From positions 124,001 through 188,000 of the forward strand of contig NZ_OY284435.1 in assembly GCF_958304185.1 (NCBI RefSeq): a stretch of DNA of 64,000 nucleotides. The letters run 5' to 3'. Under the pieces are notes generated by a model, which was not told where the DNA came from, ran no database searches, and saw nothing but the letters and a program-made list of their open reading frames with translations. Source of the stretch: an uncultured Erythrobacter sp. (GTDB taxonomy: Bacteria; Pseudomonadota; Alphaproteobacteria; Sphingomonadales; Sphingomonadaceae). This document shows, piece after piece, positions 1 to 14,518 of this stretch. Made by a program: the position numbers and the translations under genes. Positions within the stretch are counted from its first letter, which is position 1. Every line of letters starts with the position of its first letter.

Positions 1-165
1 GATATCGGGCTGGGCTACCGCATCTTCCTCGTCCGCCGCTACCTCGCGATGGACGTGATCCTGCCCTACGTCGCATGGATCGCGATCCTTGCCGTGGTGA
101 TGGATTTCGCCCTGTCGCGCGGCAGCCGCCGCCTGTTTGGCTGGGCGCATGGGGCCGCGCATTGA
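1..165 (+). CDS. ABC transporter permease, C-terminal end (partial)
   Basis: The frame is open from the first base and ends at TGA 163-165, leaving 54 codons. They contain one hydrophobic segment (ILPYVAWIAILAVVMDFAL) and a basic tail, as at the end of TauC/SsuC-type inner-membrane permeases. The stop shares one base with the start of the next gene, an ABC ATPase, so the two are translationally coupled. In the family the permease pairs with that ATPase and with a periplasmic binding protein, which should lie upstream of the window. The substrate is inferred from the downstream catabolic genes to be guanidine or urea. Only the end is visible, so the subfamily is uncertain. Confidence 0.75.
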   Translation, partial: DIGLGYRIFLVRRYLAMDVILPYVAWIAILAVVMDFALSRGSRRLFGWAHGAAH

Positions 166-959
166 TGGCGTTGCTGAGCCTCAAGAACCTGTGGGTCGAG
201 TATGGCGAAAAGGTCGTACTCGAACGGATTTCGCTCGATATTGCCGAGGGATCCTTCGTCTCGATCATCGGGCCATCAGGCGCGGGCAAGAGCAGCCTGC
301 TGCGGGTGGTGCTGGGGCAGGAGAAGCCGACGCGAGGGACGATCACCTTGGACGGCGCACCGCTGCCGCCAGAATGCGGGCCGGATCGCGGGGTGGTGTT
401 TCAGCGTTACTCGGTGTTCCCGCATTTAACTGTGCTGGGTAACACTCTGCTGGGGCTAGAATTTTCCGCCTCACCGTTAACCGCCCGTCTGTTCGGTAGC
501 GCCCGGCGGGCTGCGGTGGCGGAGGCTGAGGGGATGCTGGAATCGGTCGGGCTGGCCGATAGCCGCCACCTCTACCCAGCGCAGATGTCGGGCGGGATGC
601 AGCAGCGCCTCGCCATCGCCCAAGCCCTGATCAAGCGGCCCCGCATCCTGTTGCTGGACGAGCCTTTCGGCGCGCTCGATCCCGGCATTCGCAAGGATAT
701 GCACGCGCTCATCACCCGGCTGTGGCGTGAGCATGGGCTGACGATCATCATGGTAACGCACGACATCAAAGAGGCTTTTTCGCTCGGCACACGCGTGCTG
801 ACGCTCGACAAGCGCCGCCACGATCCGCACGCCCCGCAGCGCTATGGTGCGGCGGTCATCTATGACCTCGAACTGACCCGCAAGCACGCCGTCCAAGCCG
901 CGGTGGAAGTGGCGGCCTTGGCTGACGGTATTACGATTGACACAGTTGGTAATAATTGA
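165..959 (+). CDS. ABC transporter ATP-binding protein, taurine/nitrate type
   Basis: This 264-residue cytoplasmic ATPase powers the importer whose permease ends immediately upstream. Visible motifs are Walker A GPSGAGKS (about residues 36-43), a Q-loop VVFQRYSVFPHL, the signature MSGGMQQR (about 141) and Walker B ILLLDEPFGALDP (about 161), followed by the H-loop MVTHD. ATG 165 is chosen over an in-frame ATG at 75 because the upstream codons overlap the permease frame, while 165 gives a one-base TGATG overlap. SEED-type annotations call such proteins 'urea carboxylase-related ABC transporter'. Given the DUF1989 genes downstream, guanidine uptake is the better guess. Substrate assignment is inference. 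Confidence 0.92.
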   Translation: MALLSLKNLWVEYGEKVVLERISLDIAEGSFVSIIGPSGAGKSSLLRVVLGQEKPTRGTITLDGAPLPPECGPDRGVVFQRYSVFPHLTVLGNTLLGLEFSASPLTARLFGSARRAAVAEAEGMLESVGLADSRHLYPAQMSGGMQQRLAIAQALIKRPRILLLDEPFGALDPGIRKDMHALITRLWREHGLTIIMVTHDIKEAFSLGTRVLTLDKRRHDPHAPQRYGAAVIYDLELTRKHAVQAAVEVAALADGITIDTVGNN

Positions 960-971
960 AATGATCGCTGC

Positions 972-1451
972 ATGAGCTCCCCCGAACCCTCCCGCCTCGC
1001 GCGCCTCAGCATGAGCCTGCCGGCGGAACTGTTCCGTCAGCTCGACATGATGGTCGAGGAACGCGGACTGCCCTCGCGCTCGCAGCTGATCGCCGAATTG
1101 ATCCGCCACGCGCTGGCCGAGCATGAGGCGCTGACCCGACCGGACGAGACGCTCGCGGGGACTGTCACCATTGTCTATGCTGGAGGCGGTGGCAGGGTTC
1201 GTCAGCAACTGGCTGAAACGCAAGTGGATTACCTCAAGGAGGTGATTTCCTCGCAGCACGTGTTCCTTGAAGAGGACCAGTCGCTCGAAGTGCTGCTGGT
1301 GCAGGGGCCTGCGGTGCGGCTGAAGCAGCTGTGCGATGCCTTGCGCGCGATCCGGGGCGTGCAGCAATTGCAGCTCGTCACCACCACCGCGCTGCTGCCG
1401 CCGCTGCATGAACAGGACTTTCCGCCTGCGCGGCAGGAGGCTGCCGAATGA
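972..1451 (+). CDS. NikR-like ribbon-helix-helix regulator lacking most nickel ligands
   Basis: This 159-residue protein has an N-terminal ribbon-helix-helix DNA-binding fold (about residues 8-50) and a NikR-like ACT-type C-terminal domain (about 62-140). Aligned by eye with E. coli NikR, the high-affinity nickel ligands His76, His87, His89 and Cys95 correspond to Val85, His96, Phe98 and Ser104, so only one of four is kept. It is therefore unlikely to sense nickel in the classical way. It lies inside the urea/guanidine operon, 12 bases after the ATPase gene and overlapping UAAP1 by ATGA. It may repress or tune this operon in response to another ligand. Family membership is good; ligand and targets are unknown. 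Confidence 0.82.
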   Translation: MSSPEPSRLARLSMSLPAELFRQLDMMVEERGLPSRSQLIAELIRHALAEHEALTRPDETLAGTVTIVYAGGGGRVRQQLAETQVDYLKEVISSQHVFLEEDQSLEVLLVQGPAVRLKQLCDALRAIRGVQQLQLVTTTALLPPLHEQDFPPARQEAAE

Positions 1452-2269
1452 GCGGGACTGCCGATCCCAAGGCCGCGCGCGATCATGCCCGCGCGCAAGG
1501 CGGCACGCGGGTCGAAGCGATGCCGACCTTGCCGCCTGTCGCGGGCGACCTGCCCGAAGGCGTGGCCGCCGACGACTTGCTGTGGGAAGAAACCATAGCG
1601 CCGGGCGGATATGCCTCCCGCCGGATCGCGCGCGGCACCCGGTTGCGGCTGATCGACAAGGCGGGCGATGCCTGCGCGAGCGTCAATATCTTCAACGCCG
1701 AAATGCCGACCGAGCGGCTGAACGTCGCCGATACCGTCAAGGTGCAGTGGAGCGCCTATCTCGGCGCGGGCAAGCTGTTGCTCAGCGACATGGGCCGGGT
1801 GCTAATGAGCATCCTCGAAGACGACGCTGGCACGCACGACACTTTCTGCGGCGTCTCAACTGCCGCCAGCAACCTGCGGAAATATGGTGAGGGCCGTAAC
1901 TCCGGCGCTTACCCTAATGGGCGCGACCGGCTGATCCTCGGCGCGGCCAAGCACGGTCTGACCCGGCGCGACGTCCACCCTTGCGTGAACCTGTTCAAGG
2001 GCACCCGGATCGAGACTGACGGCACGATCACGCCAATCGTTGGCCCCTTTGCGGCAGGCCGCGAAGTGCTGCTGCGCGCCGAGATGGATGTCATCGTAGT
2101 GATCGCCAACTGCCCTCATGTGCTCGACCCGCGCGAGGGCTGGAACTCCGCCCCACTGCGCGTCACCGCATGGCACGGCGCGATTACGCCTGAACAAGAC
2201 CCCGTGCGCAATGCCACACCAGAGGGGCAACGCGCCTTCCTCAACACCGAGGACTACTACCGCCGATAA
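1448..2269 (+). CDS. UAAP1-type DUF1989 protein, probable carboxyguanidine deiminase subunit
   Basis: This 273-residue member of the DUF1989 family was historically called urea carboxylase-associated protein or 'aminomethyltransferase'. In characterised guanidine-using bacteria the two DUF1989 proteins form a heteromeric carboxyguanidine deiminase (CgdAB) that converts carboxyguanidine to allophanate and ammonia. The conserved core is visible: GTRLRLIDKAGDACASVNIF, the region around THDTFCG, HPCVNLF, and a C-terminal block with EMDVIVVIANCPH. The first 45 or so residues are a variable extension. It overlaps the regulator gene by ATGA and lies 24 bases before UAAP2. The two-subunit arrangement strongly favours a guanidine pathway, but activity is inferred. 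I leave the symbol blank because I cannot say which subunit is CgdA. Confidence 0.88.
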   Translation: MSGTADPKAARDHARAQGGTRVEAMPTLPPVAGDLPEGVAADDLLWEETIAPGGYASRRIARGTRLRLIDKAGDACASVNIFNAEMPTERLNVADTVKVQWSAYLGAGKLLLSDMGRVLMSILEDDAGTHDTFCGVSTAASNLRKYGEGRNSGAYPNGRDRLILGAAKHGLTRRDVHPCVNLFKGTRIETDGTITPIVGPFAAGREVLLRAEMDVIVVIANCPHVLDPREGWNSAPLRVTAWHGAITPEQDPVRNATPEGQRAFLNTEDYYRR

Positions 2270-2293
2270 CCCGCGCAAAAAGCAAGGCAAACC

Positions 2294-2929
2294 ATGACCA
2301 GCGACCCGGCCCTCTCCGGCCTTTCCGGCACTATCATTCACGACGAGATCGTGCCCGCCCGCGCACCGTGGTTGCACCATGTCGCGGCGGGGGAAGTGCT
2401 GCGGATCGTCGATCTCGAGGGCAATCAGGCGGTCGACTTCCTGATCTATGCCGCCGCTGATGATGCCGAGCGATACTCCGCGCAGGACACTGTTGCAGCG
2501 CAGGGTAACTTGTTCCTGCGCACCGGAGCTGTGCTCCTCTCGAACGAAGGCCGCGCGCTGATGACCATCGTGGACAGCGCAGTGGAGTATCACGATACCA
2601 TCGGCGGGGCGTGTTCGTGCGAATCCAATACCTTGCGTTACGGTCATCACACCAAGTCGCAGCACGCCTGCGTCGAGAACTTCCTTGAAGCGAACCTCAC
2701 CCAAGGTCGCAGCAAGCGCGATATTGTCTCCAACATCAACTTCTTCATGAACGTTCCGGTGGAGGAAGATGGCACGCTTGGTATCGTGGACGGCATTTCT
2801 GCCCCTGGCCTCACCGTTGACCTGCGCGCCGAGATGGATGTGATCGTGGTCGTGTCGAACTGCCCGCAGATCAACAATCCCTGCAACGGCTTCAACCCGA
2901 CGCCGGTGCGGATGATTGTGACCGCGTGA
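2294..2929 (+). CDS. UAAP2-type DUF1989 protein, probable carboxyguanidine deiminase subunit
   Basis: This 211-residue DUF1989 paralogue of the preceding gene is the probable second subunit of carboxyguanidine deiminase. It shows the shared core: GEVLRIVDLEGNQAVDFLIY, VEYHDTIGG, a Cys/His-rich stretch (ACSCES, HHTKSQHAC) that could bind metal, NINFFMNVPV, and near the end EMDVIVVVSNCPQINNPCNG. Its stop TGA 2927-2929 overlaps the GTG start of the carboxylase. The two DUF1989 genes share the EMDVIVV-SNCP block, which suggests duplication and divergence. Confidence is high for family and moderate for the enzymatic role. Confidence 0.88.
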   Translation: MTSDPALSGLSGTIIHDEIVPARAPWLHHVAAGEVLRIVDLEGNQAVDFLIYAAADDAERYSAQDTVAAQGNLFLRTGAVLLSNEGRALMTIVDSAVEYHDTIGGACSCESNTLRYGHHTKSQHACVENFLEANLTQGRSKRDIVSNINFFMNVPVEEDGTLGIVDGISAPGLTVDLRAEMDVIVVVSNCPQINNPCNGFNPTPVRMIVTA

Positions 2930-5900
2930 CTTTCGACACTGTCCTCATCGCCAATCGGGGCGCGATTGCGACGCGGATCATCCGCACGTGCAAGGCGATG
3001 GGGCTGCGCAGCGTGGCGGTCTATTCCGAGGCGGACGCAGGCTCGCTCCATGTCAGCGCGGCGGACGCGGCGGTGTGCATCGGGCCGGGCCCAGCGGCGC
3101 AGAGCTACCTGAATGTCGAGGCCATTCTGGCAGCGGCCAAGGCGACGGGCGCCGGGGCGATCCATCCGGGCTACGGCTTCCTCGCCGAGAATGCCGAGTT
3201 TGCCGAAAGCTGCGCGGCGGCAGGGATCGCCTTTATCGGGCCGACGCCGGACAATATCCGCACCTTTGGCCTCAAGCACTCCGCCCGTGCGCTAGCCGAA
3301 GCGCATGGCCTGCCGCTCGCCCCTGGCACCGGGTTGCTGACCGGCGAGGACGAGGCGGCCGAGGCGGCGGCGCGGATTGGCTATCCGGTGATCCTCAAGG
3401 CCACGGCAGGTGGCGGCGGCATCGGCATGCGCATTTGCGAGAGCGAGGCAGCGGTGCGCGACGGTTTTGCCGCAGTCGTCCGGCAGGGAGAAGCCAGCTT
3501 CGGCGATGCGGGCGTCTTCCTTGAGCGCTATGTCGCCCGCGCGCGGCATATCGAAGTGCAGATCTTCGGCGACGGGCAGGGCCGGGTGATGGCACTGGGT
3601 GAGCGTGACTGCTCGCTGCAACGGCGCAACCAGAAGGTCGTGGAAGAAGCGCCCGCGCCGTGCCTGTCGGACGCCAAGCGCGCCGAGCTGATTGCTGCTG
3701 CGGTGCGGTTGGGCGAAGCGGCGGGGTATCTGTCGGCTGGCACGGTCGAATTCCTGTACGATGCGCAGCGCGACGATTTCTTCTTCCTCGAAATGAACAC
3801 CCGGCTTCAGGTCGAACACGGCGTCACCGAGGAGGTGATGAGGATCGATCTGGTCGAATGGATGATCCGGGGCGCAGCGGGCGACTTCGCCTTTCTCGAT
3901 GCCCCCGCGCCCACCGCGCAAGGCCACGCGGTTCAGGTGCGGCTCTATGCCGAAGATCCGGCGATGGATTACCGTCCCACGATCGGCACGCTCGTCAACG
4001 TCGCCTTTCCCGACAATATCCGCGCCGAGACTTGGGTCATGGCGGGCAGCGAGGTCAGCGCGTTTTACGATCCGATGCTGGCGAAGCTGATCACCTATGC
4101 CGACACGCGCGATGCCGCCATTGGCGTGATGCAGGCGGCGCTGGATGCCTCCCGTGTCGACGGGCTCGAGACCAACCTCAGGTGGCTGCGCGATGTGGTG
4201 CGGCATGAGGGCTTTACCAGCGGCGAAGTCTCGACCCGGATGCTTGATCACGTCGGCTATGCGCGCCGCGCGGTGCGGGTAATTGCAGGCGGCACGGCAA
4301 CTTCGGTGCAGGACTTCCCCGGCCGCCTCGGTCTGTGGGATGTGGGCGTCCCGCCGTCAGGGCCGATGGATGATCGGAGCTTCCGGCTGGGCAATCTCAT
4401 GCTCGGCAACCCCGAGGTTACAGCGGGGCTGGAGGTCACTGCCAGCGGGCCAACCCTGCTGTTCGAAGCGCCTGCGACCATATGCCTGACCGGCGCGGAT
4501 TTCGGCGCGAAGCTCGACGGCGAGACCGTCGCGCGCGGGGTGCCGATAGCTATCGCCGCTGGGCAGACCCTCGCGCTAGGGCGGGCGAGCGGCGGGGGGA
4601 TGCGCGGCTATATCCTGTTCGCGGGCGGGCTTGATGTGGTGCCCTATCTCGGCAGCGCGGCGACTTTCACACTCGGTCAGTTCGGCGGCCACGCCGCGCG
4701 CGGACTGGTGGCGGGCGATGTGCTGCATCTGGGCGATGGTGCGACCGGCGAGGGTATCACGGCGCCGCTTCCCGCGCTCTCCCGGACATGGGAGTTGCGC
4801 GTTCTCTACGGCCCCCACGGCGCGCCCGATTTCTTCACGCCGGACGACATCGCCCGCTTCCTCGAAGCCGAGTGGCAGGTGCATTACAACTCCAACCGCA
4901 CCGGGGTGCGTCTGGTCGGCCCCAAGCCCGAATGGGCGCGGCGCGACGGGGGTGAGGCGGGGCTGCACCCGTCGAATATTCACGACAACCCCTATGCCAT
5001 CGGCGCGGTCGATTTCACCGGGGATATGCCGATCATCCTCGGGCCGGACGGGCCTTCGCTGGGGGGCTTCGTGTGCCCCTTCACGGTGATCGCGGCGGAT
5101 CGGTGGAAGATCGGTCAGCTCAGCCCTGATGACCGGCTCCGCTTCGTGCCAGTCACGATTGCCGACGCCATGGCGGCGAACGCCGCGCCGCTCAACGCTC
5201 TGCCCGTGCCGACCTCGACGCGCGCGATTGCGGGCCTCTCACCGGTACTCGCGGAGCTGCCCGCGCTCGGCGCACGCCCCAAGACCACCTATCGTCAACA
5301 GGGCGACCGCAACATTCTCGTCGAATATGGCGACATCGTGCTCGATATCGAGCTGCGCATCCGCATCCATGCGCTGATGCAGGCGCTGGAGGCAATGAAC
5401 CTGCCCGGCGTGATCGACATCACCCCAGGCATCCGCTCGCTGCAATTGCACTTCGACGGCACCACGCTGGATCAGCCCCGCGCGCTCGCCGCGTTGATGG
5501 CGGCCGAGGAGGCGATGGGGGATCTCGATGATTTCGAAACGCCCTCGCGCATCGTGCACCTGCCGCTGAGCTGGCGTGATCCCGCGATTGAGGAGACCAT
5601 CGCCAAGTATATCGGCACGGTGCGCGACGATGCGCCGTGGTGCCCGGACAATATCGAGTTCATCCGCCGTATCAATGGTCTGCCCGATGCGCAGGCGGTC
5701 GAAGATCTGATCTTCGATGCCAGCTACCTCGTGCTGGGCCTTGGCGATGTCTACCTCGGCGCGCCGGTTGCAACCCCGGTCGATCCGCGCCACCGGCTCG
5801 TCACCACCAAATACAACCCCGCGCGCACCTGGACTCCGCCCAATGTGGTCGGGATCGGCGGCGCCTATATGTGCATCTACGGGATGGAGGGGCCGGGCGG

Positions 5901-6510
5901 CTATCAGCTGTTCGGGCGGACCATTCAGGTGTGGAACACGCACCGGCAGACCGACGCCTTCGTCGATGGCAAGCCGTGGCTGTTGCGGTTCTTCGACCAG
6001 ATCCGGTTCTTCCCTGTCACCGCCGACGAACTCACCGATTGGCGCCGCGATTTCCCGCATGGGCGGCGGTCGATCAAGGTCGAAGAGACCACCTTCCGCC
6101 TCGCCGATTACCGCGCGTTCCTGGCCGATAACGCCGCCAGCATCGCCGCTTTCGAGACCACCCGCCAAGCCGCCTTTGATGCCGAACGCGCCGCGTGGCA
6201 GGCCTCGGGCGAGTTCGACCGGGTCAGCGACCTGCTCGAAGGCGGAGCAGGCGGCGGCGATGTGGTGGCAATCGAGGTGCCGGACGGCGCGGATGTGATC
6301 GAAGCCCCGTTCGGCGGCAGCGTGTGGAAGCTCCTAGTCGCTCCCGGCGATGTGGTGGCGGAAGGCGATGTGATCGCGGTGATTGAGGCGATGAAGATGG
6401 AATGCCCGTTTGAAAGCCCCGCCAGCGGCACGGTGGCCGCGCTCTACATCACTGAGCATCAGGCCTTGCAACCCGGCGCGCCAATGCTGGCCTTGAGGAA
6501 AGCATCGTGA
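2926..6510 (+). CDS. Biotin-dependent urea/guanidine carboxylase
   Basis: This 1194-residue cytoplasmic carboxylase adds CO2 to urea or guanidine using ATP and biotin. Domain order is biotin carboxylase N-domain (1-110), ATP-grasp (about 115-320), biotin carboxylase C-domain (about 335-440), a KipA/AHS2-like domain (from about 450), a KipI/AHS1-like domain (about 780-990), a linker, and a C-terminal biotinyl domain with the acceptor lysine in EAMKMECP. Length and order match the urea carboxylase family. The start is GTG 2926, overlapping the upstream stop as GTGA. Because the operon has both DUF1989 genes, guanidine is the more likely substrate; the sequence alone does not settle it. Allophanate hydrolase follows in a second GTGA overlap. 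Confidence 0.93.
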   Translation: MTFDTVLIANRGAIATRIIRTCKAMGLRSVAVYSEADAGSLHVSAADAAVCIGPGPAAQSYLNVEAILAAAKATGAGAIHPGYGFLAENAEFAESCAAAGIAFIGPTPDNIRTFGLKHSARALAEAHGLPLAPGTGLLTGEDEAAEAAARIGYPVILKATAGGGGIGMRICESEAAVRDGFAAVVRQGEASFGDAGVFLERYVARARHIEVQIFGDGQGRVMALGERDCSLQRRNQKVVEEAPAPCLSDAKRAELIAAAVRLGEAAGYLSAGTVEFLYDAQRDDFFFLEMNTRLQVEHGVTEEVMRIDLVEWMIRGAAGDFAFLDAPAPTAQGHAVQVRLYAEDPAMDYRPTIGTLVNVAFPDNIRAETWVMAGSEVSAFYDPMLAKLITYADTRDAAIGVMQAALDASRVDGLETNLRWLRDVVRHEGFTSGEVSTRMLDHVGYARRAVRVIAGGTATSVQDFPGRLGLWDVGVPPSGPMDDRSFRLGNLMLGNPEVTAGLEVTASGPTLLFEAPATICLTGADFGAKLDGETVARGVPIAIAAGQTLALGRASGGGMRGYILFAGGLDVVPYLGSAATFTLGQFGGHAARGLVAGDVLHLGDGATGEGITAPLPALSRTWELRVLYGPHGAPDFFTPDDIARFLEAEWQVHYNSNRTGVRLVGPKPEWARRDGGEAGLHPSNIHDNPYAIGAVDFTGDMPIILGPDGPSLGGFVCPFTVIAADRWKIGQLSPDDRLRFVPVTIADAMAANAAPLNALPVPTSTRAIAGLSPVLAELPALGARPKTTYRQQGDRNILVEYGDIVLDIELRIRIHALMQALEAMNLPGVIDITPGIRSLQLHFDGTTLDQPRALAALMAAEEAMGDLDDFETPSRIVHLPLSWRDPAIEETIAKYIGTVRDDAPWCPDNIEFIRRINGLPDAQAVEDLIFDASYLVLGLGDVYLGAPVATPVDPRHRLVTTKYNPARTWTPPNVVGIGGAYMCIYGMEGPGGYQLFGRTIQVWNTHRQTDAFVDGKPWLLRFFDQIRFFPVTADELTDWRRDFPHGRRSIKVEETTFRLADYRAFLADNAASIAAFETTRQAAFDAERAAWQASGEFDRVSDLLEGGAGGGDVVAIEVPDGADVIEAPFGGSVWKLLVAPGDVVAEGDVIAVIEAMKMECPFESPASGTVAALYITEHQALQPGAPMLALRKAS

Positions 6511-8273
6511 GCACCTTTGCCCGCCTCAGCGCGACCGCCATCGCGGCAAACGTCACCAGTGGCGAGGCCACCGCGCTCGCCGTGATCGAGGATACGCTCG
6601 CCCGCCTCGCCGCCTATGATGCGCATCAGCCGCAGGTGTGGATCAGCCGCGCCGACCCTGCGGCCCTGCGCGCCGCCGCCCGCGCCATTGACGCGCGGGT
6701 CGCGGCGGGCGAGCACTTGCCGCTCGCCGGAGTGCCGTTTGCGGCGAAGGACAATATCGACGTCGCCGGGCTGGAGACGACCGCTGCCTGCCCGACCTTC
6801 GCCTATCGGCCTGAGCGTTCCGCCACCGCGATCGAACGGCTAGAAGCGGCGGGCGCGATCTGTGTCGGCAAAACCAATCTCGATCAGTTCGCCACCGGCC
6901 TCGTCGGCACGCGCAGCCCCTATGGCATCCCGCGCAACGCCTATAACCGTGACTATGTCAGCGGCGGTTCAAGCTCCGGCTCGGCGATAGCCGTGGCGGC
7001 GGGGCTGGTGGCGTTCGCGCTTGGCACGGATACGGCGGGGTCGGGCCGGGTGCCTGCGGCGTTCAATCACCTTATCGGGTTGAAGCCGACCAAGGGCCGC
7101 TGGAGCACGCGCGGCCTGGTGCCGGCCTGCCGGACGCTCGATTGCATCACGGTGTTCACCGATGCCCTGCATGATGCGCAGACCGTAGATGCTGTGATCG
7201 CCGGGTTCGATGCCGAGGACGCCTTTTCGCGCGTACCCTCGGACGTTGCGATTAGCGGTCGCCGGATCGGGGTGCCGCGCCGTGATCAGCGGGTGTTCTT
7301 CGGCGATGTCGCGGCCGAATATCTCTACGACCGCGCGCTAGGCGTGCTGGCGGCGCAGGGCGAGATCGTAGAGATCGACATCGCCCCGCTGCTCGAAGCC
7401 GCGCGCCTGCTCTACGGCGGGCCGTGGGTGGCAGAACGCACCGCAGCCGTCGCTCCGCTGCTCGATAGCAATCCGCTCGCCATCGACCCGGTGGTGCGCG
7501 AAGTCATCGCGCCCGGCAGTGCCATGCTCGCGACCGAATTGTGGAACGGCATCTACCGCCTCGCCGAATTGCAGCGCCATGCCGAGAGCATGTGGAGCGA
7601 GGTCGATGTGCTCGCTTTCCCCACCACCGGCACCACTTACCGGGTCGCCGAACTGCTCGAAGCGCCGGTGGCATTGAACAGCAATCTCGGGCTCTATACC
7701 AATTTCGTGAACTTGCTCGACATGGCCGCGCTGGCGGTGCCAGCCGGTGCGCGCGACAATGGCACGGGCTTCGGAATCACGCTGATCGGGCCTGCGCACA
7801 GCGATCTTGCGCTCATTGACCTCGCGCGTTCGTATCTGGCTTCGGCCGACCTTCCCCTTCCGCCACCGCTCGATCTTGGAGACCGCATGGACACCGTCAA
7901 ACTCGCCGTCGTTGGTGCACATCTTGAAGGGATGCCGCTGCATTGGCAGCTGACGTCGCGCGGGGCGACCTTTGTGGGTGCCTTCACCACCGCGCCCAAT
8001 TACCGGCTGTATGCGATGGCCGATTCCGTCCCGCCCAAGCCTGCGCTGGTGCATAGTGAGGACGGGGCCGAAATCGCTCTGGAAGTCTACGAGCTCGACA
8101 TGGCCAGCTTCGGCAGCTTCGTCACCGAGGTGCCTCCGCCGCTTGCGATTGGCACGGTCACGCTCGCCGACGGCAGCAGCGTCAAGGGCTTCGTCGCCGA
8201 ACCGCGCGCGCTGACCGGGGCGGAAGACATCACTCATCTGGGCGGCTGGCGCGCCTATATCGCCTCGCGATGA
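6507..8273 (+). CDS. atzF: Allophanate hydrolase
   Basis: This 588-residue amidase-signature enzyme hydrolyses allophanate to ammonia and CO2, the last step of the urea carboxylase or guanidine carboxylase route. The amidase domain covers about residues 1-440. It carries the catalytic lysine in PFAAKDNIDVAG and the Ser-cisSer pair in SGGSSSGSA within a Gly/Ser-rich loop. The C-terminal 130 residues form the separate allophanate hydrolase C-domain (from about VKLAVVGAHLEGMPL), present in full-length AtzF. The start is GTG 6507, overlapping the carboxylase stop. The next gene, a histidine kinase, begins one base after the stop codon. Confidence 0.94.
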   Translation: MSTFARLSATAIAANVTSGEATALAVIEDTLARLAAYDAHQPQVWISRADPAALRAAARAIDARVAAGEHLPLAGVPFAAKDNIDVAGLETTAACPTFAYRPERSATAIERLEAAGAICVGKTNLDQFATGLVGTRSPYGIPRNAYNRDYVSGGSSSGSAIAVAAGLVAFALGTDTAGSGRVPAAFNHLIGLKPTKGRWSTRGLVPACRTLDCITVFTDALHDAQTVDAVIAGFDAEDAFSRVPSDVAISGRRIGVPRRDQRVFFGDVAAEYLYDRALGVLAAQGEIVEIDIAPLLEAARLLYGGPWVAERTAAVAPLLDSNPLAIDPVVREVIAPGSAMLATELWNGIYRLAELQRHAESMWSEVDVLAFPTTGTTYRVAELLEAPVALNSNLGLYTNFVNLLDMAALAVPAGARDNGTGFGITLIGPAHSDLALIDLARSYLASADLPLPPPLDLGDRMDTVKLAVVGAHLEGMPLHWQLTSRGATFVGAFTTAPNYRLYAMADSVPPKPALVHSEDGAEIALEVYELDMASFGSFVTEVPPPLAIGTVTLADGSSVKGFVAEPRALTGAEDITHLGGWRAYIASR

Positions 8274-8274
8274 T

Positions 8275-9756
8275 ATGATGGCGGGGCGGCTCACCAATTG
8301 GCTTAAAGGCGACGGCGCAACAGGGCCGACCGACGACGCGTTCGCGCAGCTGCGCGCCGCCAAGGAGGCCGCCGAGGCCGCCAATGAAGCCAAGACCCGC
8401 TTCCTCGCCAGCGTCAGCCATGAAATCCGCTCACCGCTCAATGCGATCTATGGCTATGCCCAGCTGCTGGAGCGGAATGACGGCAAGGACGCGCTCAATG
8501 CCGCGCGGGTGATCCGCCGCAGCGCCGAACACCTGTCGCATCTAGTCGAAGGCCTGCTCGACATCGCGCAGGTCGAAGGCGGCGCGCTGAAGCTGAGCCG
8601 GGAGGCGATCCGCTTCCCCGAGTTCCTCGCGCAATTGATCGCCATGCTCGAACTGCAAGCGCAGTCGAAGGGGATCGCGCTGGTGCTCGACCATCCGCCG
8701 GGCTTGCCCGAATTCGTCCATGCCGATCCCAAGCGCTTGCGGCAGGTGCTGATCAATCTGTTGACCAACGCAATCAAGTTTACCGATCATGGATCGGTCA
8801 CCCTCAAGGTCGAATACCGCAACCAGTTGGCGACCTTCACCGTGATCGACACCGGCATCGGCATCGCGCCCGAGGATGCGGAGCGGATTTTCGCGCCGTT
8901 CGAGCGGGTGGCAGGGCCAGCGGGCGAGCGGCCCGGCGTCGGGCTCGGGCTCGCGATCACGCAGGCGCTGGTGCATATCATGGGCGGCGAAATCCGGGTC
9001 GAAAGCGCGCCGGGGGAAGGATCGCGCTTCATCGTGCGGTTGATGCTGTCGCAGCCGCTCAGCCCGCCGACCGATCCGGCGCCAGAGCCGGGCATGGTCA
9101 CTGGCTACCTTGGGCGCGAGCGCTGGGTCGTGCTGATCGATGACGATACGGCGCATCTGGCGATGGTGCGCGGCCTGCTCGAACCGCTGGGCTTTCGGGT
9201 GCACACCGCCAGCGACGGCGAGACCGGCCTAGCGCTCGCCGCGCAGGTGCAGCCCGATCTGGTCCTGTGCGATGTTATGCTGGGACGCGAGTCCGGGTGG
9301 GATATCGCGGCGAAACTGCGCCGCCGCCACGGCGCTGCGTTGCGGATCGTGATGCTGTCGGGTGAGGGGCCCCATTCCGCCGCACCGCCTGCGGACGGCC
9401 CGGCCAATGATACGTTTGTGATGAAGCCATTCGAATTCACCGTGTTGCTTGATGTGATTGCCGCCCAGCTGGGGCTCGAATGGCTGCGGGCTGGTGGCCC
9501 CGCCCGTGACGCGCCCGAAGCCGGCGTGACGCACTTACCGCCAGCAATTGCTTCTCGCGCCGCTGCCCATTGCGCCGAGATCGAGCGGTTGGTGCGGATC
9601 GGCCATGTTCGCGCCATCGAGGCGGAGATTGACGCCATCGCCGCGCTCGCTCCCGAAGCGGCGCCACTGGCCGAACGAATGCGGCGGGTGCTCGACAGCT
9701 TCGACCTGAAGGCGCTGGCCGACCTTGCCAAAGCGGTGGCTGCCGATGCGCGCTAA
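8275..9756 (+). CDS. Soluble hybrid histidine kinase with receiver
   Basis: This 493-residue signalling protein has no visible transmembrane segment or PAS domain. A short N-terminal helix leads into the HisKA box FLASVSHEIRSPLNAIYG (phospho-His about 49). The HATPase_c domain follows, with LINLLTNAIKF, DTGIGIAPEDAE and GVGLGLAI. A receiver domain occupies about 285-400, with acceptor Asp about 333 in LCDVML and a Lys in MKPFEF. The last 70 residues are a helical region of unknown role. It starts one or four bases after the allophanate hydrolase stop (two tandem ATGs) and overlaps the response regulator gene. It probably reports nitrogen-source or substrate status, perhaps through a partner such as the ABC system. 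The stimulus is unknown. Confidence 0.9.
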   Translation: MMAGRLTNWLKGDGATGPTDDAFAQLRAAKEAAEAANEAKTRFLASVSHEIRSPLNAIYGYAQLLERNDGKDALNAARVIRRSAEHLSHLVEGLLDIAQVEGGALKLSREAIRFPEFLAQLIAMLELQAQSKGIALVLDHPPGLPEFVHADPKRLRQVLINLLTNAIKFTDHGSVTLKVEYRNQLATFTVIDTGIGIAPEDAERIFAPFERVAGPAGERPGVGLGLAITQALVHIMGGEIRVESAPGEGSRFIVRLMLSQPLSPPTDPAPEPGMVTGYLGRERWVVLIDDDTAHLAMVRGLLEPLGFRVHTASDGETGLALAAQVQPDLVLCDVMLGRESGWDIAAKLRRRHGAALRIVMLSGEGPHSAAPPADGPANDTFVMKPFEFTVLLDVIAAQLGLEWLRAGGPARDAPEAGVTHLPPAIASRAAAHCAEIERLVRIGHVRAIEAEIDAIAALAPEAAPLAERMRRVLDSFDLKALADLAKAVAADAR

Positions 9757-10657
9757 GGACTGCATCCTTGTTGTCGACGACAGCCCGGAATCGCTCCGGT
9801 TCCTGGTCGATACGCTCGAGGCTGAGGACATGACCGTGCTGATCGCCCGCAGCGGCGAGGCGACGCTTGAATTGCTGGCCGAAGTGCAGCCCGATCTTAT
9901 CCTGATGGACGCGATCATGCCCGGCATCGGCGGGATCGAGACCACCCAAGCGATCAAGCGCAATCCGGCGACCGCGCACATTCCGGTGATCTTCATGACC
10001 GGCCTCAACGATCCCGATCACGTGGTCGCCGCGCTCGGCACCGGCGGGGTCGATTATGTGCGCAAGCCGGTGGTGATCGAGGAACTGCTGGCGCGGATGA
10101 AGGTGCACCTCGCCAATGCCCGCACGACCTATCGCTCGCGGCTGGCGCTCGGTCTGGCGGGGCGCAGTCTGGCGGCGCTGGGCGAGGATGCGGGACTAGT
10201 CTGGTGCACACCCCAGGCCGAGGCGTTGTTCATCGCAGTCGATCCCGACTGGACCGCCGATCGCGGCGTGCTACCCGAAGCCTTGATGGGCGCAGCCCTC
10301 GGTTTGATCGCCGCAGACCCCGTGCAGCCCCCCGCCAGCGTCCGCGTCGATGTGCGCGGGCTGGAGATTGATCTCGCCTTGGTCGAAACCGGCCGGCCGG
10401 GCGAAACCCTGATCCGCGTCACCGAAGTGCGTGAAGATGGCAAGATCGCCGACCTGCAAAAGCATAACGGCCTGACCCGGCGCGAGGCAGAAGTGCTGCT
10501 GTGGGTGAGCTATGGCAAAACCAACAAGACGATCAGCGAGATTCTTGGTATAAGCCCGCGCACGGTGAACAAGCACTTGGAACAGGTGTTTCGTAAACTC
10601 GGGGTCGAAACCCGCGCCGCCGCCACTGCCATCGCAGTGCGATATCTTGCTGACTGA
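9746..10657 (+). CDS. LuxR-family response regulator, partner of the upstream kinase
   Basis: This 303-residue protein has an N-terminal receiver (about 5-120; DD pair at 11-12, phospho-acceptor Asp55 in LMDAIMPG, Lys in VRKPVVIEEL). A roughly 110-residue middle region shows no motif I recognise. A C-terminal LuxR-type helix-turn-helix follows (LTRREAEVLLWVSYGKTNKT, then ISPRTVNKHLEQVFRKLGV). ATG 9746 is chosen over an in-frame ATG at 9725 because it aligns directly with the receiver start; either overlaps the kinase gene. It is the last gene of the operon, so phosphorelay from the hybrid kinase likely feeds back on the operon promoter upstream of the window. Confidence 0.9.
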   Translation: MRAKDCILVVDDSPESLRFLVDTLEAEDMTVLIARSGEATLELLAEVQPDLILMDAIMPGIGGIETTQAIKRNPATAHIPVIFMTGLNDPDHVVAALGTGGVDYVRKPVVIEELLARMKVHLANARTTYRSRLALGLAGRSLAALGEDAGLVWCTPQAEALFIAVDPDWTADRGVLPEALMGAALGLIAADPVQPPASVRVDVRGLEIDLALVETGRPGETLIRVTEVREDGKIADLQKHNGLTRREAEVLLWVSYGKTNKTISEILGISPRTVNKHLEQVFRKLGVETRAAATAIAVRYLAD

Positions 10658-10787: not shown

Positions 10788-11804
10788 ATGGCCGGAGTGC
10801 AGGTGGGCAAGCGCATTATCGGGGCAGATGCTCCGGTGATTGTCGGCTGGGAGAATATCGGCCGGGTCCAAGGCGGTCCGGTGAAGCAGTTCGTGTTCAC
10901 GTACTTCCAGCCCGCGATGCTCTTTGCCGCGATCTTGTTCTGGTACTACGCCCCCAATTGGCTCGCTGTCGCGTCGACTGCGATCGCCATCCGGCTTGGC
11001 TGGATGATCCTGCTGCTCGTGCTCGAATGGGTCAATCCGCGCTATGAAAGCTGGCAACTGACGTGGAAAGAATTCGCCACGGACGCCTTCTATGTCGGGC
11101 TCGGCATGACCTTCCTCGGCATGGTTGACGCCTATATTGGCGATGGGGTGATGATCAAAGCGGTGCAGGGCGCGTTCGATTGGGACAAGTTCAGCTGGTT
11201 CACGGGCCTGCCGCTGCTGCTGCAAGCGCTGCTGATCTCGATGATCTTCGACTTCGGCCAGTACTGGATGCATCGCGCGATGCACAATTGGCACCCGCTG
11301 TGGCTGACCCATGCGCCGCACCACTACGTCACCCAGCTGAACATCAACAAAGGCGCGGTTGGCAACCCGATCGAGCTGTTCCTGATCGGCCTCGGCATCG
11401 GCGGCTTGTTCGACTTCCTGCCGCGCGCTTTCCTGTTGGCAGGGGCAATCGGGATGACCGTGTCGGTCTATCAGCACATCAACGTGCGCTTCAACACTCC
11501 GCGCTGGTGGCGTTTCATCTTCAACACCGTGGAGCATCACTCCGTCCACCACTCGCAGGATTATGAGGCGACCCGCAGCAACTACTCCGGGACCTGGATC
11601 ATCTGGGACCGCATCTTCGGCACTTGCGTCGATGGTGAGGCCGAAGTGCTCGGCATGGAAGGCGGACGCCGGATGCACATTGGCGAGACGATGATCTTCC
11701 CGTTCCGCGAAGGCTGGCGCAGCGCCAAGGAGGCTTTCGCCAAGCGCTCCGGACGCGGGGCCACTCCGCAGCTTCAGGCAGCCCAGATGGAACCTGCCGA
11801 ATGA
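10788..11804 (+). CDS. Sterol desaturase / fatty acid hydroxylase superfamily membrane protein
   Basis: This 338-residue integral membrane di-iron oxygenase family member has four or so hydrophobic segments in the first 210 residues. The histidine clusters of the superfamily are present: HRAMHN, HAPHHY and HHSVHHSQ, with a further His in VYQHIN. A GGGGAG Shine-Dalgarno sequence precedes ATG 10788. Bacterial members hydroxylate or desaturate sterols, hopanoids, carotenoids or fatty acids; the substrate cannot be told here. The next gene overlaps it by ATGA, suggesting co-expression. Confidence 0.85.
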   Translation: MAGVQVGKRIIGADAPVIVGWENIGRVQGGPVKQFVFTYFQPAMLFAAILFWYYAPNWLAVASTAIAIRLGWMILLLVLEWVNPRYESWQLTWKEFATDAFYVGLGMTFLGMVDAYIGDGVMIKAVQGAFDWDKFSWFTGLPLLLQALLISMIFDFGQYWMHRAMHNWHPLWLTHAPHHYVTQLNINKGAVGNPIELFLIGLGIGGLFDFLPRAFLLAGAIGMTVSVYQHINVRFNTPRWWRFIFNTVEHHSVHHSQDYEATRSNYSGTWIIWDRIFGTCVDGEAEVLGMEGGRRMHIGETMIFPFREGWRSAKEAFAKRSGRGATPQLQAAQMEPAE

Positions 11805-12517
11805 GCGGAACGTCTGGGGGTATTGCCAGTGACACAGCGGGGCCGTGGGGTGCGGCACCTTCACCTGAACGCCCGGCGAGCATTCCGTCCATGAGGCTGC
11901 CGCTGATCGACCACATCTGGCGGGTGCGCAGCGATGTGCCGATCGACCCTTTGCTCTCGCCTGAGGAGGTTTTCGCCCGGCTCGATCCGCTGCTGCGCAC
12001 GCCGGGGACAACCGTTGCCGCCGAGGGTGGCACGCTGACCTATTCGAAGCACAATCCCGCCGCGCAGGACAAGCTGGCGACATTCACCCGCGGACAATTG
12101 CGGATCGAGCGGGTCGGCGCGGGCGCAGTGCTGCGGTTTGACCTGTTCAGCCATGCGCTGCTGCTGTGCTTCCTCGCGCCGCTGCTGTTCCTCGGCTTTG
12201 CCCAGGTGGCGGTGGCGATCAATGCGTGGGAAGGCGCCGGAGCCGACGCGTCCGAAAAGGCCGAGAAGAAGGATGAGAAGCCGAAGCCGGTGAAGGTGCT
12301 CAACCCCGTCGATCAATTCCTCGGCGCGCCTGCGCCTGAAGATCCTAACAAGAAGAAGAAAGATGAGAAGAAGGACGAAGGCCGCCATTCGCCTGATGAG
12401 GGTTACTTCATGGCCGGTGTCTTCGCGCTGATCTATCTCGTGGGCCGCTGGCTGGAGCCGTGGCTGGTGCGGCGGCGCTTCCGCGCCGCGCTCGCAAACC
12501 CGCCCGCTGCGTCCTAG
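11801..12517 (+). CDS. Hypothetical membrane protein with lysine-rich linker
   Basis: This 238-residue protein is of no family I recognise. The first 30 residues are low-complexity; an internal ATG at 11891 (MRLPLIDHIW) may be the true start. The middle has a hydrophobic segment (ALLLCFLAPLLFLGFAQVAV). A highly charged linker (EKAEKKDEKPKPVKV and PNKKKKDEKKDEGRH) leads to a second hydrophobic segment (FMAGVFALIYLVG) and a basic C-terminus. It overlaps the desaturase gene by ATGA, so a shared operon is likely. Its stop overlaps the convergent ArsR stop by four bases (CTAG). Confidence 0.7.
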   Translation: MSGTSGGIASDTAGPWGAAPSPERPASIPSMRLPLIDHIWRVRSDVPIDPLLSPEEVFARLDPLLRTPGTTVAAEGGTLTYSKHNPAAQDKLATFTRGQLRIERVGAGAVLRFDLFSHALLLCFLAPLLFLGFAQVAVAINAWEGAGADASEKAEKKDEKPKPVKVLNPVDQFLGAPAPEDPNKKKKDEKKDEGRHSPDEGYFMAGVFALIYLVGRWLEPWLVRRRFRAALANPPAAS

Positions 12518-12861: not shown

Positions 12862-13523
12862 CAATCGCGCCCCGTCTCATCGCGCAGGAACCAGCTGGTC
12901 GCGTCCTCGGCATCGAACACTTCGTCAAGAGTCTGGCTCGGCGGTTTGAGCAGCGGCTCGCCCGGCAGCCAGTTGGCAGGGGCGAGGGCGCCCTTGGCAT
13001 CAATCGCCTGAAGCCCGTCGAGAATGCGCAGCATTTCCGAGATCGAGCGGCCAAGGTTCGCCGGATAGCAGGTCATCGCCCGGATCACGCCCTTAGGGTC
13101 AAGGAAGAAGGTCGTGCGCACCGCCGCACTGTCGCTGTCCTGCGCGCCGACCATGCCGAAAGCGCGGGCGATCACCAGCGTCGGGTCTTCAAGGATGGGA
13201 AAGCGCACCTCGACCCCGAAGCGGTCGCGGATCATCCTGAGCCACGCGAAGTGCGAAAACAAGCTGTCGACCGAGAGCGCCATCAGCGCGCAGTCCCGCG
13301 CTTCGAACGCCGCCGCCTCGCGGGCGAGGGCGACGAATTCGGTGGTGCAGACCGGCGTGAAGTCCGCCGGGTGCGAGAACAATACCAGCCAGCGCCCCCG
13401 GTGGGCGGAGAGCCGCACCGGGCCGATGGTGCTGCGGGCTTCGAAATCGGGGGCGAAATCGCCGATCCTGAGGCCCGCGCAGGGTGGGAGGCTGGAAGTG
13501 GTCTGGTCCATGAACCGGGTCAT
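12861..13523 (-). CDS. Peroxiredoxin (AhpC/TSA family, probably 1-Cys type)
   Basis: This 220-residue thiol peroxidase shows FAPDFEAR near the N-terminus and the active-site PADFTPVCTTEF with peroxidatic Cys59. The C-terminal dimerisation extension (LAPANWLPGEPLLKPP) is typical of the Prx6-like 1-Cys group. ATG 13523 is chosen because AGGAG lies nine bases upstream; an in-frame ATG at 13541 falls inside a palindromic operator candidate and has no such site. It is co-transcribed with the ArsR gene and divergent from the persulfide dioxygenase. It may remove peroxides or polysulfides formed during sulfide stress; that role is inference. Confidence 0.9.
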   Translation of the reverse strand: MTRFMDQTTSSLPPCAGLRIGDFAPDFEARSTIGPVRLSAHRGRWLVLFSHPADFTPVCTTEFVALAREAAAFEARDCALMALSVDSLFSHFAWLRMIRDRFGVEVRFPILEDPTLVIARAFGMVGAQDSDSAAVRTTFFLDPKGVIRAMTCYPANLGRSISEMLRILDGLQAIDAKGALAPANWLPGEPLLKPPSQTLDEVFDAEDATSWFLRDETGRD

Positions 13524-13535
13524 AGCACTTGACTC

Positions 13536-13551
13536 CTGCATTGCAATACAG
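13536..13551. promoter_or_regulatory. Palindromic operator candidate between divergent sulfur genes
   Basis: CTGCATTGCAATACAG is a 16-base inverted repeat with a perfect ATTGCAAT core and one mismatched pair. It sits between the peroxiredoxin start (13523) and the persulfide dioxygenase start (13586), where a local regulator would act on both promoters. The neighbouring ArsR protein is the obvious candidate. Binding is not shown by the sequence. Confidence 0.5.
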
Positions 13552-13585
13552 ATACACGATTTATGAAAATGAATGGAGATTGGCG

Positions 13586-14518
13586 ATGAGCGCGATTGAT
13601 CCGGTGCTGCAAAGTGCGACCGAGCAGGTGCTGAGGGCTGCTGACGACTCAGCGCTCCGTCCCGAAATCGCGAGCTTTTTTGACCCGGCGACCTTCAGTG
13701 TTACCTACGTGGTTCACGATCCCGGGACGCTTGAGGCGGCGGTGATCGACTCGGTGCTCGACTTTGATCCCAACTCCGGACGCACGGCGACGGCTTCGGC
13801 CGACCGGGTGATCGACCATGTCACTTCGCATAATCTGAAAGTGAAGTGGCTGCTGGAGACCCATGCCCACGCCGATCACTTCTCCGCTGCGCCCTACCTT
13901 CAGGAAAAGCTTGGCGGCAAAATCGCCATCGGCGCGGACATCACCACCGTTCAAACCGTGTTCGGCAAGCTGTTCAACGCTGGCACCGAGTTCGAGCGGG
14001 ACGGATCGCAGTTCGATGTGCTGTTCAAGGACGGCGACACCTTTACCATCGGCAATCTGCCGGTGACAGTGATGCACGTCCCCGGCCACACCCCCGCCTG
14101 CATCGCCTATGTCGTGGGCGAGGCGGTGTTCGTGGGCGATACCATGTTCATGCCCGACTACGGCACGGCGCGCGCTGACTTCCCCGGCGGGGACGCGCGC
14201 ACGCTGTTCCGCTCGCTGCGCCGCATTCTCTCGCTGCCGCCCGCTACCCGGCTGTTCATGTGCCATGACTACCTGCCCAAGGGCCGCTCGACCTATGTCT
14301 GGGAGACCACCGTTGCAGCGGAGCGAGAGGGCAATGTCCACGCGCATGATGGCATCACCGAGGACGAGTTTGTCATGATGCGCGAGGCGCGTGATGCGAC
14401 GCTCGATATGCCGCGCCTCATCCTGCCTTCGGTGCAGGTGAATATGCGCGCGGGCCATATGCCCCCGCCGGACGATAATGGCATCACCTACCTCAAAATT
14501 CCGGTCAACGCGGTATGA
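13586..14518 (+). CDS. MBL-fold persulfide dioxygenase, ETHE1/Blh type
   Basis: This 310-residue metallo-beta-lactamase-fold enzyme carries THAHADHFSAA (His93, His95, Asp97, His98), VPGHTPAC, VFVGDTMFMPDYGTARADFP, and a late metal-site histidine in CHDYLP. These match the ETHE1-like persulfide dioxygenases that oxidise glutathione persulfide to sulfite. ATG 13586 follows a TGGAG ribosome site; an upstream in-frame ATG at 13529 would run through the operator region. In Xylella and Agrobacterium the related Blh protein is fused to a DUF442 domain; here DUF442 is a separate gene in the same operon. The next gene overlaps by ATGA. Confidence 0.88.
   Translation: MSAIDPVLQSATEQVLRAADDSALRPEIASFFDPATFSVTYVVHDPGTLEAAVIDSVLDFDPNSGRTATASADRVIDHVTSHNLKVKWLLETHAHADHFSAAPYLQEKLGGKIAIGADITTVQTVFGKLFNAGTEFERDGSQFDVLFKDGDTFTIGNLPVTVMHVPGHTPACIAYVVGEAVFVGDTMFMPDYGTARADFPGGDARTLFRSLRRILSLPPATRLFMCHDYLPKGRSTYVWETTVAAEREGNVHAHDGITEDEFVMMREARDATLDMPRLILPSVQVNMRAGHMPPPDDNGITYLKIPVNAV

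Follow-up and report, generated by a model that had tools for sequence, protein, structure and literature searches.

A NikR-like protein as candidate switch of a guanidine-assimilation operon without a detectable guanidine riboswitch

Introduction

Operons under guanidine-I or guanidine-II riboswitches in Pseudomonas syringae, Raoultella and Vreelandella combine genes for an ABC importer, the proteins CgdA and CgdB, an Asp-type carboxylase and an allophanate hydrolase (accessible portions of PMC12186494, PMC11410670 and PMC12508155). Here we analyse an operon with the same set of genes at the start of a 64,000-nucleotide stretch of DNA from an uncultured Erythrobacter sp. (the window, bases 124001-188000 of its contig, in a genome of 3.29 Mb). 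In contrast to the riboswitch operons, neither guanidine-I nor guanidine-II was found in this genome, and a gene for a NikR-like protein, together with palindromes, is present instead. The locus also differs from them in an added kinase-regulator pair and in a membrane FA_hydroxylase gene downstream.

Two other known systems resemble parts of the locus. The carboxylase, P0005, is from the same enzyme family as the urea carboxylases (urea amidolyases) known from yeasts and bacteria, which have Asn at Kluyveromyces lactis position 1330, whereas P0005 has Asp and adjoins CgdA and CgdB (CgdAB). The regulator, P0002, has an RHH and a NikR_C domain in common with NikR of Escherichia coli, Pyrococcus horikoshii and Helicobacter pylori, and both systems have inverted half-sites separated by a 14-base spacer, which here form a putative operator. 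Unlike NikR with its HHHC ligand set, P0002 has three of the four ligands replaced, carries a C-terminal LLPPL extension and is encoded in guanidine operons.

We consider it probable that this is a guanidine-assimilation operon switched by a nickel-blind NikR at a palindrome in place of a riboswitch. The enzymes were already known; what is new is a variant of the NikR family as putative regulator of a guanidine operon. According to the accessible portion of a 2025 review, no protein is known in such a role (PMC12186494). We found no report of a NikR-like guanidine regulator in the literature searched, most subscription papers being outside our reach, and the available portions of PMC2667541 and PMC12153308 contain nothing on one.

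Specificity of the carboxylase

Carboxylases acting on guanidine have Asp, and those acting on urea Asn, at the position of K. lactis residue 1330 (PMC11410670 and PMC12186494, in the portions accessible). Asp696 of P0005 aligns with Asn1330 of the K. lactis urea carboxylase 5i8i (TIGR02712 position 701), and the guanidine reading holds because Asp sits at this published position. P0005 also carries the conserved Asp in GLGDV (TIGR02712 position 956; K. lactis 1584 by manual count on the printed alignment), as do all carboxylases read in our survey of the phylum. It scores above the cut-off of TIGR02712, the urea carboxylase model, and the two different DUF1989 subunits that adjoin it each exceed the cut-off of their own model (UAAP1 and UAAP2).

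A search of 398 phylum genomes at 1e-200 gave the 53 carboxylase genes of the survey, and for each of them the specificity residue and the neighbouring genes were read. Forty-two are Asp-type, and every one of these has two distinct DUF1989 genes in the surrounding stretch; among the 11 Asn-type genes none has a DUF1989 gene nearby. Asp is likewise found at the specificity position in the carboxylases of all 80 named related loci, which are the best 80 of 218 loci from a pattern search with the NikR-like protein. A first-pass annotation of the window had taken the enzyme for probably a guanidine rather than a urea carboxylase, and the strict association of Asp with paired DUF1989 genes, added to Asp696 and to CgdA and CgdB above their cut-offs, means that this assignment is well supported at the level of sequence.

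A NikR-like protein with altered nickel ligands

What the first-pass annotation had listed merely as a regulator is indeed encoded within the operon, but its identity had been missed: it is NikR-like, and it is the regulator tied to the operon. P0002 matches five NCBIfam NikR models with E values down to 3e-28 while remaining under all five cut-offs, and it scores above the gathering thresholds of PF01402 (RHH_1) and PF08753 (NikR_C). In a Foldseek search with an AlphaFold model of P0002 the best match was NikR 2bj3, and the C-terminal domain superposes on H. pylori NikR domains with an rmsd of 1.3-1.5 A. The model is a monomer of moderate confidence (mean pLDDT 70.7), and for these reasons we do not read the binding pocket from it. 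Proteins identical to P0002 are found in Erythrobacter ramosus and in two Porphyrobacter records, which points to Erythrobacteraceae as the probable family of the genome.

The nickel ligands of P. horikoshii NikR, which we take to be H, H, H and C, align with V85, H96, F98 and S104 of P0002. Neither H79 nor H92 has a His as its counterpart, and Ser replaces the ligand Cys. Given a pocket rebuilt in this way, the protein should no longer answer to nickel. The 80 named loci hold 99 copies of the NikR-like protein, and in none is the ligand set complete: no copy has His at position 85, residue 98 is F in 86 copies and V in 13, and position 104 is Ser in all 99. Across the phylum there are 15 NikR-like matches. 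Six are guanidine-linked (including G000; ligands were read for G000, G065 and G443), three have an intermediate x-H-H-T form (G488, G173 and G497), and the six weakest-scoring, ordinary NikRs by their ligands, retain HHHC, as does 2bj1.

A quick tree, which has several long branches, places the guanidine-linked proteins in one group (support 99) and separates these and the intermediates from the HHHC proteins (96). Residues conserved in four guanidine-linked sequences and unseen in seven HHHC NikRs include F98, E100, S104, K89 and R125; that these line a guanidinium pocket is a guess. A second NikR-like copy lies beside the operon in 19 of the 80 named loci (for example L057:10001-10441 and 13447-13887). 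These 19 loci are mostly from Novosphingobium, and their in-operon copies form one group in the quick tree. On one contig filed as Candidatus Poribacteria (L086), the NikR-like protein is identical over the compared stretch to that of a Croceicoccus record; the contig is probably misbinned.

A conserved palindrome at the promoter

The palindrome TATTAC-N14-GTAATA occurs at two places in the locus, in front of the binding-protein gene and directly 5' of the NikR-like gene (Table 1). No other site in the 3.29 Mb genome comes within one mismatch of the motif, and the reversed pattern, used as a control, gives no match. The exact motif is present in 78/78 binding-protein promoters of the named loci, 84-100 bases before the start codon, with a spacer that varies (one of the 80 loci is too short upstream and one has no binding-protein gene). 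Similarly, 82 of the 99 NikR-like copies are preceded, no more than 220 bases before the gene, by a site that is exact or has one mismatch.

Related palindromes occur in G054 and with the intermediate forms. Both loci of G054 have GTGTTAC-N14-GTAACAC before the NikR-like gene, a sequence that exactly matches the NikR signal put forward for delta-proteobacteria in the accessible part of PMC545781. Among the three intermediate forms, two have sites of this kind: G488 has the perfect palindrome GTATTAC-N14-GTAATAC before its binding-protein gene, and G173 has GTATTAC-N14-GTACTAC beside it. The repeat GTATGAC-N14-GTCATAC lies near the NikR-like gene of G497.

Within the order, exact TATTAC sites occur in five of six genomes with the NikR-like gene (the sixth is G054). 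Stray one-mismatch sites are found in other operon-bearing genomes, and in G054 the reversed-pattern control gives nine matches against four forward ones. We therefore reject the motif alone as proof of regulation. Because it has a background in other genomes of the order, position and conservation, not presence, carry the argument for an operator.

Distribution of the protein and of the RNA switches

Searches of the whole genome gave no match to the guanidine-I (RF00442, ykkC) or guanidine-II (RF01068) riboswitch, and Rfam scans of the window and of nine homologous loci returned no family at its cut-off. At a relaxed Rfam threshold, the region upstream of the operon gave five matches, all far under their gathering scores. 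In 147 genomes of the order, guanidine-I had no match above its cut-off and three weak ones, in a genus (g42) of another family. The first-pass annotation had suggested looking for a ykkC riboswitch upstream of the binding-protein gene; none was found there or elsewhere in the genome, and on the scans as a whole we reject guanidine-I control in this genome.

Within the order, the NikR-like protein is distributed exactly as the carboxylase is. Nine of the 147 genomes have the carboxylase, and the same nine and no others have the NikR-like protein (Fisher test, 1.5e-14, not corrected for relatedness). Its gene stands directly upstream of CgdA at all ten carboxylase loci of the nine genomes; ABC genes are present at eight of the ten, the two loci without them both belonging to G054. 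In a class-wide scan of 385 genomes at 1e-20, the model matched only G000, G019 and G173, which suggests that the guanidine-linked form is largely restricted to Sphingomonadales. It is also present in G443, from another family of the class.

When the 42 Asp-type genes of the phylum survey are sorted by what lies near them, 34 have only a guanidine-I riboswitch (within 12 kb), seven have only a NikR-like gene, one has neither and none has both.

Elsewhere in the phylum, one run of genes in G488 (L118:4571-10256) consists of a binding protein, a permease, a creatininase, a type III glutamine synthetase and a NikR-like gene with the ligand set Y-H-H-T, and is a possible second nickel-blind NikR regulon. 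Creatininase and glutamine-synthetase genes (PF02633, PF00120) also lie upstream at locus L129 of G252, as in G488.

Proposed mechanism

Under the mechanism we favour, guanidine would be imported by the ABC transporter and carboxylated by the ATP-dependent carboxylase. The resulting carboxyguanidine would be deiminated by CgdAB, and allophanate would then be hydrolysed to ammonia and CO2. The NikR-like protein would bind both copies of TATTAC-N14-GTAATA, in the promoter of the operon and at the NikR-like gene itself, and repress the operon, until guanidine (less likely carboxyguanidine or allophanate) fills the rebuilt pocket and the repressor is released. We infer repression here; the alternative is that the NikR-like protein acts as a ligand-dependent activator of the operon. 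The kinase-LuxR pair, added here and in many Erythrobacteraceae relatives, would probably bring in nitrogen status.

Several observations count against this proposal. The choice of guanidine as ligand rests on context, which is equally compatible with an intermediate of the pathway or with a general nitrogen signal. NikR is chiefly known as a ligand-requiring repressor, so that release driven by a ligand would be a reversal. The Fisher value for the split between riboswitch and NikR-like gene, 3e-7, overstates independence because five of the seven NikR-like cases come from one family, and for the same reason the split describes only a small number of lineages. Nor do the two kinds of system strictly exclude each other, given that G173, one of the seven, pairs an intermediate NikR-like form (x-H-H-T) with a guanidine-II riboswitch. 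The Asp-type gene of G252 has neither a guanidine-I/II riboswitch nor a NikR-like gene. As to the operator, 17 of the 99 NikR-like copies have no near-exact site in the 220 bases before the gene, and exact sites also occur in 13 of 117 genomes of the order that have no NikR-like gene. Finally, H96 is kept in 99/99 copies, but it lay inside the search pattern that retrieved the loci, so that part of its conservation across the 80 loci comes from the selection itself.

Alternative explanations

Could the NikR-like protein still be a metal sensor, with His96 among the residues that bind nickel or some other metal? Use of the carboxylase route, which needs no nickel, would then be coupled to metal supply; the route could, for example, stand in for nickel-dependent urease or guanidinase. 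Arguing for this, the NikR fold and a His at one ligand position are conserved, the family is known for sensing nickel, and a nickel-free nitrogen route would be sensible under nickel shortage. Counter to this, three of the four ligands are gone in all 99 copies, a loss common to the guanidine-linked group of the quick tree; the linkage is to guanidine genes, and in other genomes a guanidine riboswitch takes the place of the protein. We judge continued metal sensing to be quite unlikely. We regard it as extremely unlikely that the locus is a conventional operon for the use of urea by urea carboxylase and allophanate hydrolase, in which the DUF1989 proteins are accessories and control is constitutive or unrelated. 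The annotation names (urea carboxylase, urea ABC binding protein, UAAP1/2) would suit such an operon, but the residue at the specificity position and the adjoining CgdAB do not, and the 11 Asn-type genes of the phylum have no DUF1989 gene, guanidine-I/-II riboswitch or NikR-like gene nearby.

A third alternative places control with the terminal kinase-regulator pair of the operon. The first-pass annotation saw in this pair an uncommon addition that suggests sensing of the substrate or of nitrogen status; taken further, the pair would be the guanidine or nitrogen sensor and main switch, and the NikR-like protein secondary. The pair follows allophanate hydrolase with almost no gap in the window, it was matched in 32 of the 80 named loci, and in all 32 it is codirectional with the operon. 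Pairs homologous to it stand outside the guanidine operon in G123, G100, G121 and G133 (46-53% identical), where their neighbours are genes for a flavin amine oxidase, PF01042 (RidA-type) proteins and an amidase, which makes a link to organic nitrogen plausible. Yet the arrangement also occurs without the pair. Twenty-four of the named loci are uninformative because their sequence breaks off no later than the end of allophanate hydrolase, or within 251 bases of it; in the 56 with enough sequence behind that gene (at least 2.5 kb), the pair is present in 32 and absent in 24. The 24 loci without it hold about 3 kb behind allophanate hydrolase and keep the operator and the NikR-like gene. Among the nine carboxylase-bearing genomes of the order, the pair is in the operon in three (G000, G143 and G030) and elsewhere in one (G123), while in five the regulator has no match anywhere at 1e-35; conversely, three of the 147 genomes (G100, G121 and G133) have the pair and no carboxylase match. 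The proteins do form a two-component layout, with HisKA, HATPase_c and REC in the kinase and REC and GerE in its partner, the order and output also found in hybrid kinases such as TorS, BarA and NahK with their LuxR-type partners. Unlike these, the kinase of the window has no recognised sensor or other input domain, falling far under the cut-offs of the best 25 NCBIfam models listed, and it has only the three domains named and no hydrophobic stretch of transmembrane strength. That the pair is the main switch therefore seems unlikely to us.

The presence and orientation of the pair thus stand as first annotated; as a defining feature of the operon, a two-component system is rejected because 24 of the 56 informative loci have none. 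The pair is an accessory of the operon, and we take it to have been drawn into the operon from a broader repertoire of organic-nitrogen controls. Five loci without the pair (L072, L073, L081, L089 and L093) have a one-mismatch operator copy between allophanate hydrolase and the FA_hydroxylase gene, which fits insertion of the pair at this position and is not proof of it.

Implications of a proposed NikR-based switch

Returning to the NikR-like protein as switch, a wider proposal is possible, although we hold it with reservation. The protein may be a guanidine-binding transcription factor in which the nickel pocket became a guanidinium pocket, the NikR operator was kept and the riboswitch was replaced in Sphingomonadales, and a second nickel-blind branch (x-H-H-T) may control other small-nitrogen uptake operons, such as that of G488. 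If true, a metal sensor has been turned into a sensor of an organic cation, and a protein switch serves where other lineages use an RNA switch. A match to NikR in an annotation need then not mean nickel. The NikR-like protein is a testable candidate guanidine sensor: one defined protein, a likely operator and 99 natural copies are now open to testing.

Operon layout and flanking genes

The features of the locus are collected in Table 1. Positions are those of the window, except where given on L001, a stretch of the same contig on which the window position equals the L001 position minus 10000.

Table 1. Features of the guanidine operon and of the genes that follow it
Feature	Position	Strand	Basis or remarks
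Main operator (putative)	L001:8171-8196		89 bases 5' of the binding-protein start codon, upstream of the window
Substrate-binding protein gene	L001:8260-9345, upstream of the window	same strand	above TIGR03427 ABC_peri_uca cut-off
ABC permease gene	L001:9350-10165; 3' end is window 1..165	+	PF00528
ABC transporter ATPase gene	165..959	+	open reading frame (ORF), PF00005; ATG shares one base with the permease stop
Second operator copy TATTAC-N14-GTAATA (putative)	929..954		directly 5' of the NikR-like gene; TTGACA hexamer inside
NikR-family regulator P0002 (RHH_1 and NikR_C)	972..1451	+	three of four nickel ligands replaced (V85, F98, S104); H96 kept
CgdA-type DUF1989 protein P0003 (UAAP1), predicted carboxyguanidine deiminase subunit	1448..2269	+	TIGR03425, 311 bits, cut-off 206
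CgdB-type DUF1989 protein P0004 (UAAP2), predicted carboxyguanidine deiminase subunit	2294..2929	+	TIGR03424, 336 bits, cut-off 285
Biotin-dependent carboxylase P0005, predicted guanidine carboxylase (annotated urea carboxylase)	2926..6510	+	Asp696; Asp in GLGDV
Allophanate hydrolase	6507..8273	+	Amidase and AH_C
Soluble hybrid histidine kinase	8275..9756	+	HisKA, HATPase_c, REC; no recognised sensor domain
Response regulator, REC and LuxR-type (GerE) output	about 9746..10657	+	domains; start codon picked by inspection
Membrane FA_hydroxylase gene (sterol desaturase type)	10788..11804	+	PF04116
238-residue protein	11801..12517	+	no Pfam match

Within positions 1-10657 all genes lie on the forward strand, gaps are no longer than 25 bp and several genes overlap, in agreement with the nine-gene, near-gapless run in a single direction that had been annotated first. 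The binding-protein gene, which that annotation expected upstream of the window, is found there. From binding protein to allophanate hydrolase the genes follow one strand in identical order in all 80 named loci, leaving aside genes lost at contig ends. The permease, ATPase, CgdA, CgdB and carboxylase are present in 80/80, the binding protein in 79 and allophanate hydrolase in 78, some contigs ending early. The operon is thus conserved beyond chance expectation. It does run through position 10657, as first described, but genes on the same strand go on beyond this border (the last two rows of Table 1), and it is only possible that they belong to the transcript.

An FA_hydroxylase gene was matched near the guanidine operon in 63 of the 80 named loci (for example L050:2616-3656 on the reverse strand, and L072:17603-18604 and L074:18681-19574 on the forward strand). 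In 36 of the 63, a site with at most one mismatch to the operator lies within 450 bases before the gene; in the window, the genome scan at the same stringency showed no such site before the FA_hydroxylase gene. This gene may belong to the guanidine regulon, and that its product acts on an alkylated guanidine is a guess. Just upstream of the operon are genes for a TonB-dependent receptor (L001:4458-6992) and a beta-propeller protein (L001:7077-8072). At two other loci (L077:4007-6445 and L101:4073-6511), an additional exact copy of the operator is found 328-380 bases away from where a TonB-type receptor gene starts.

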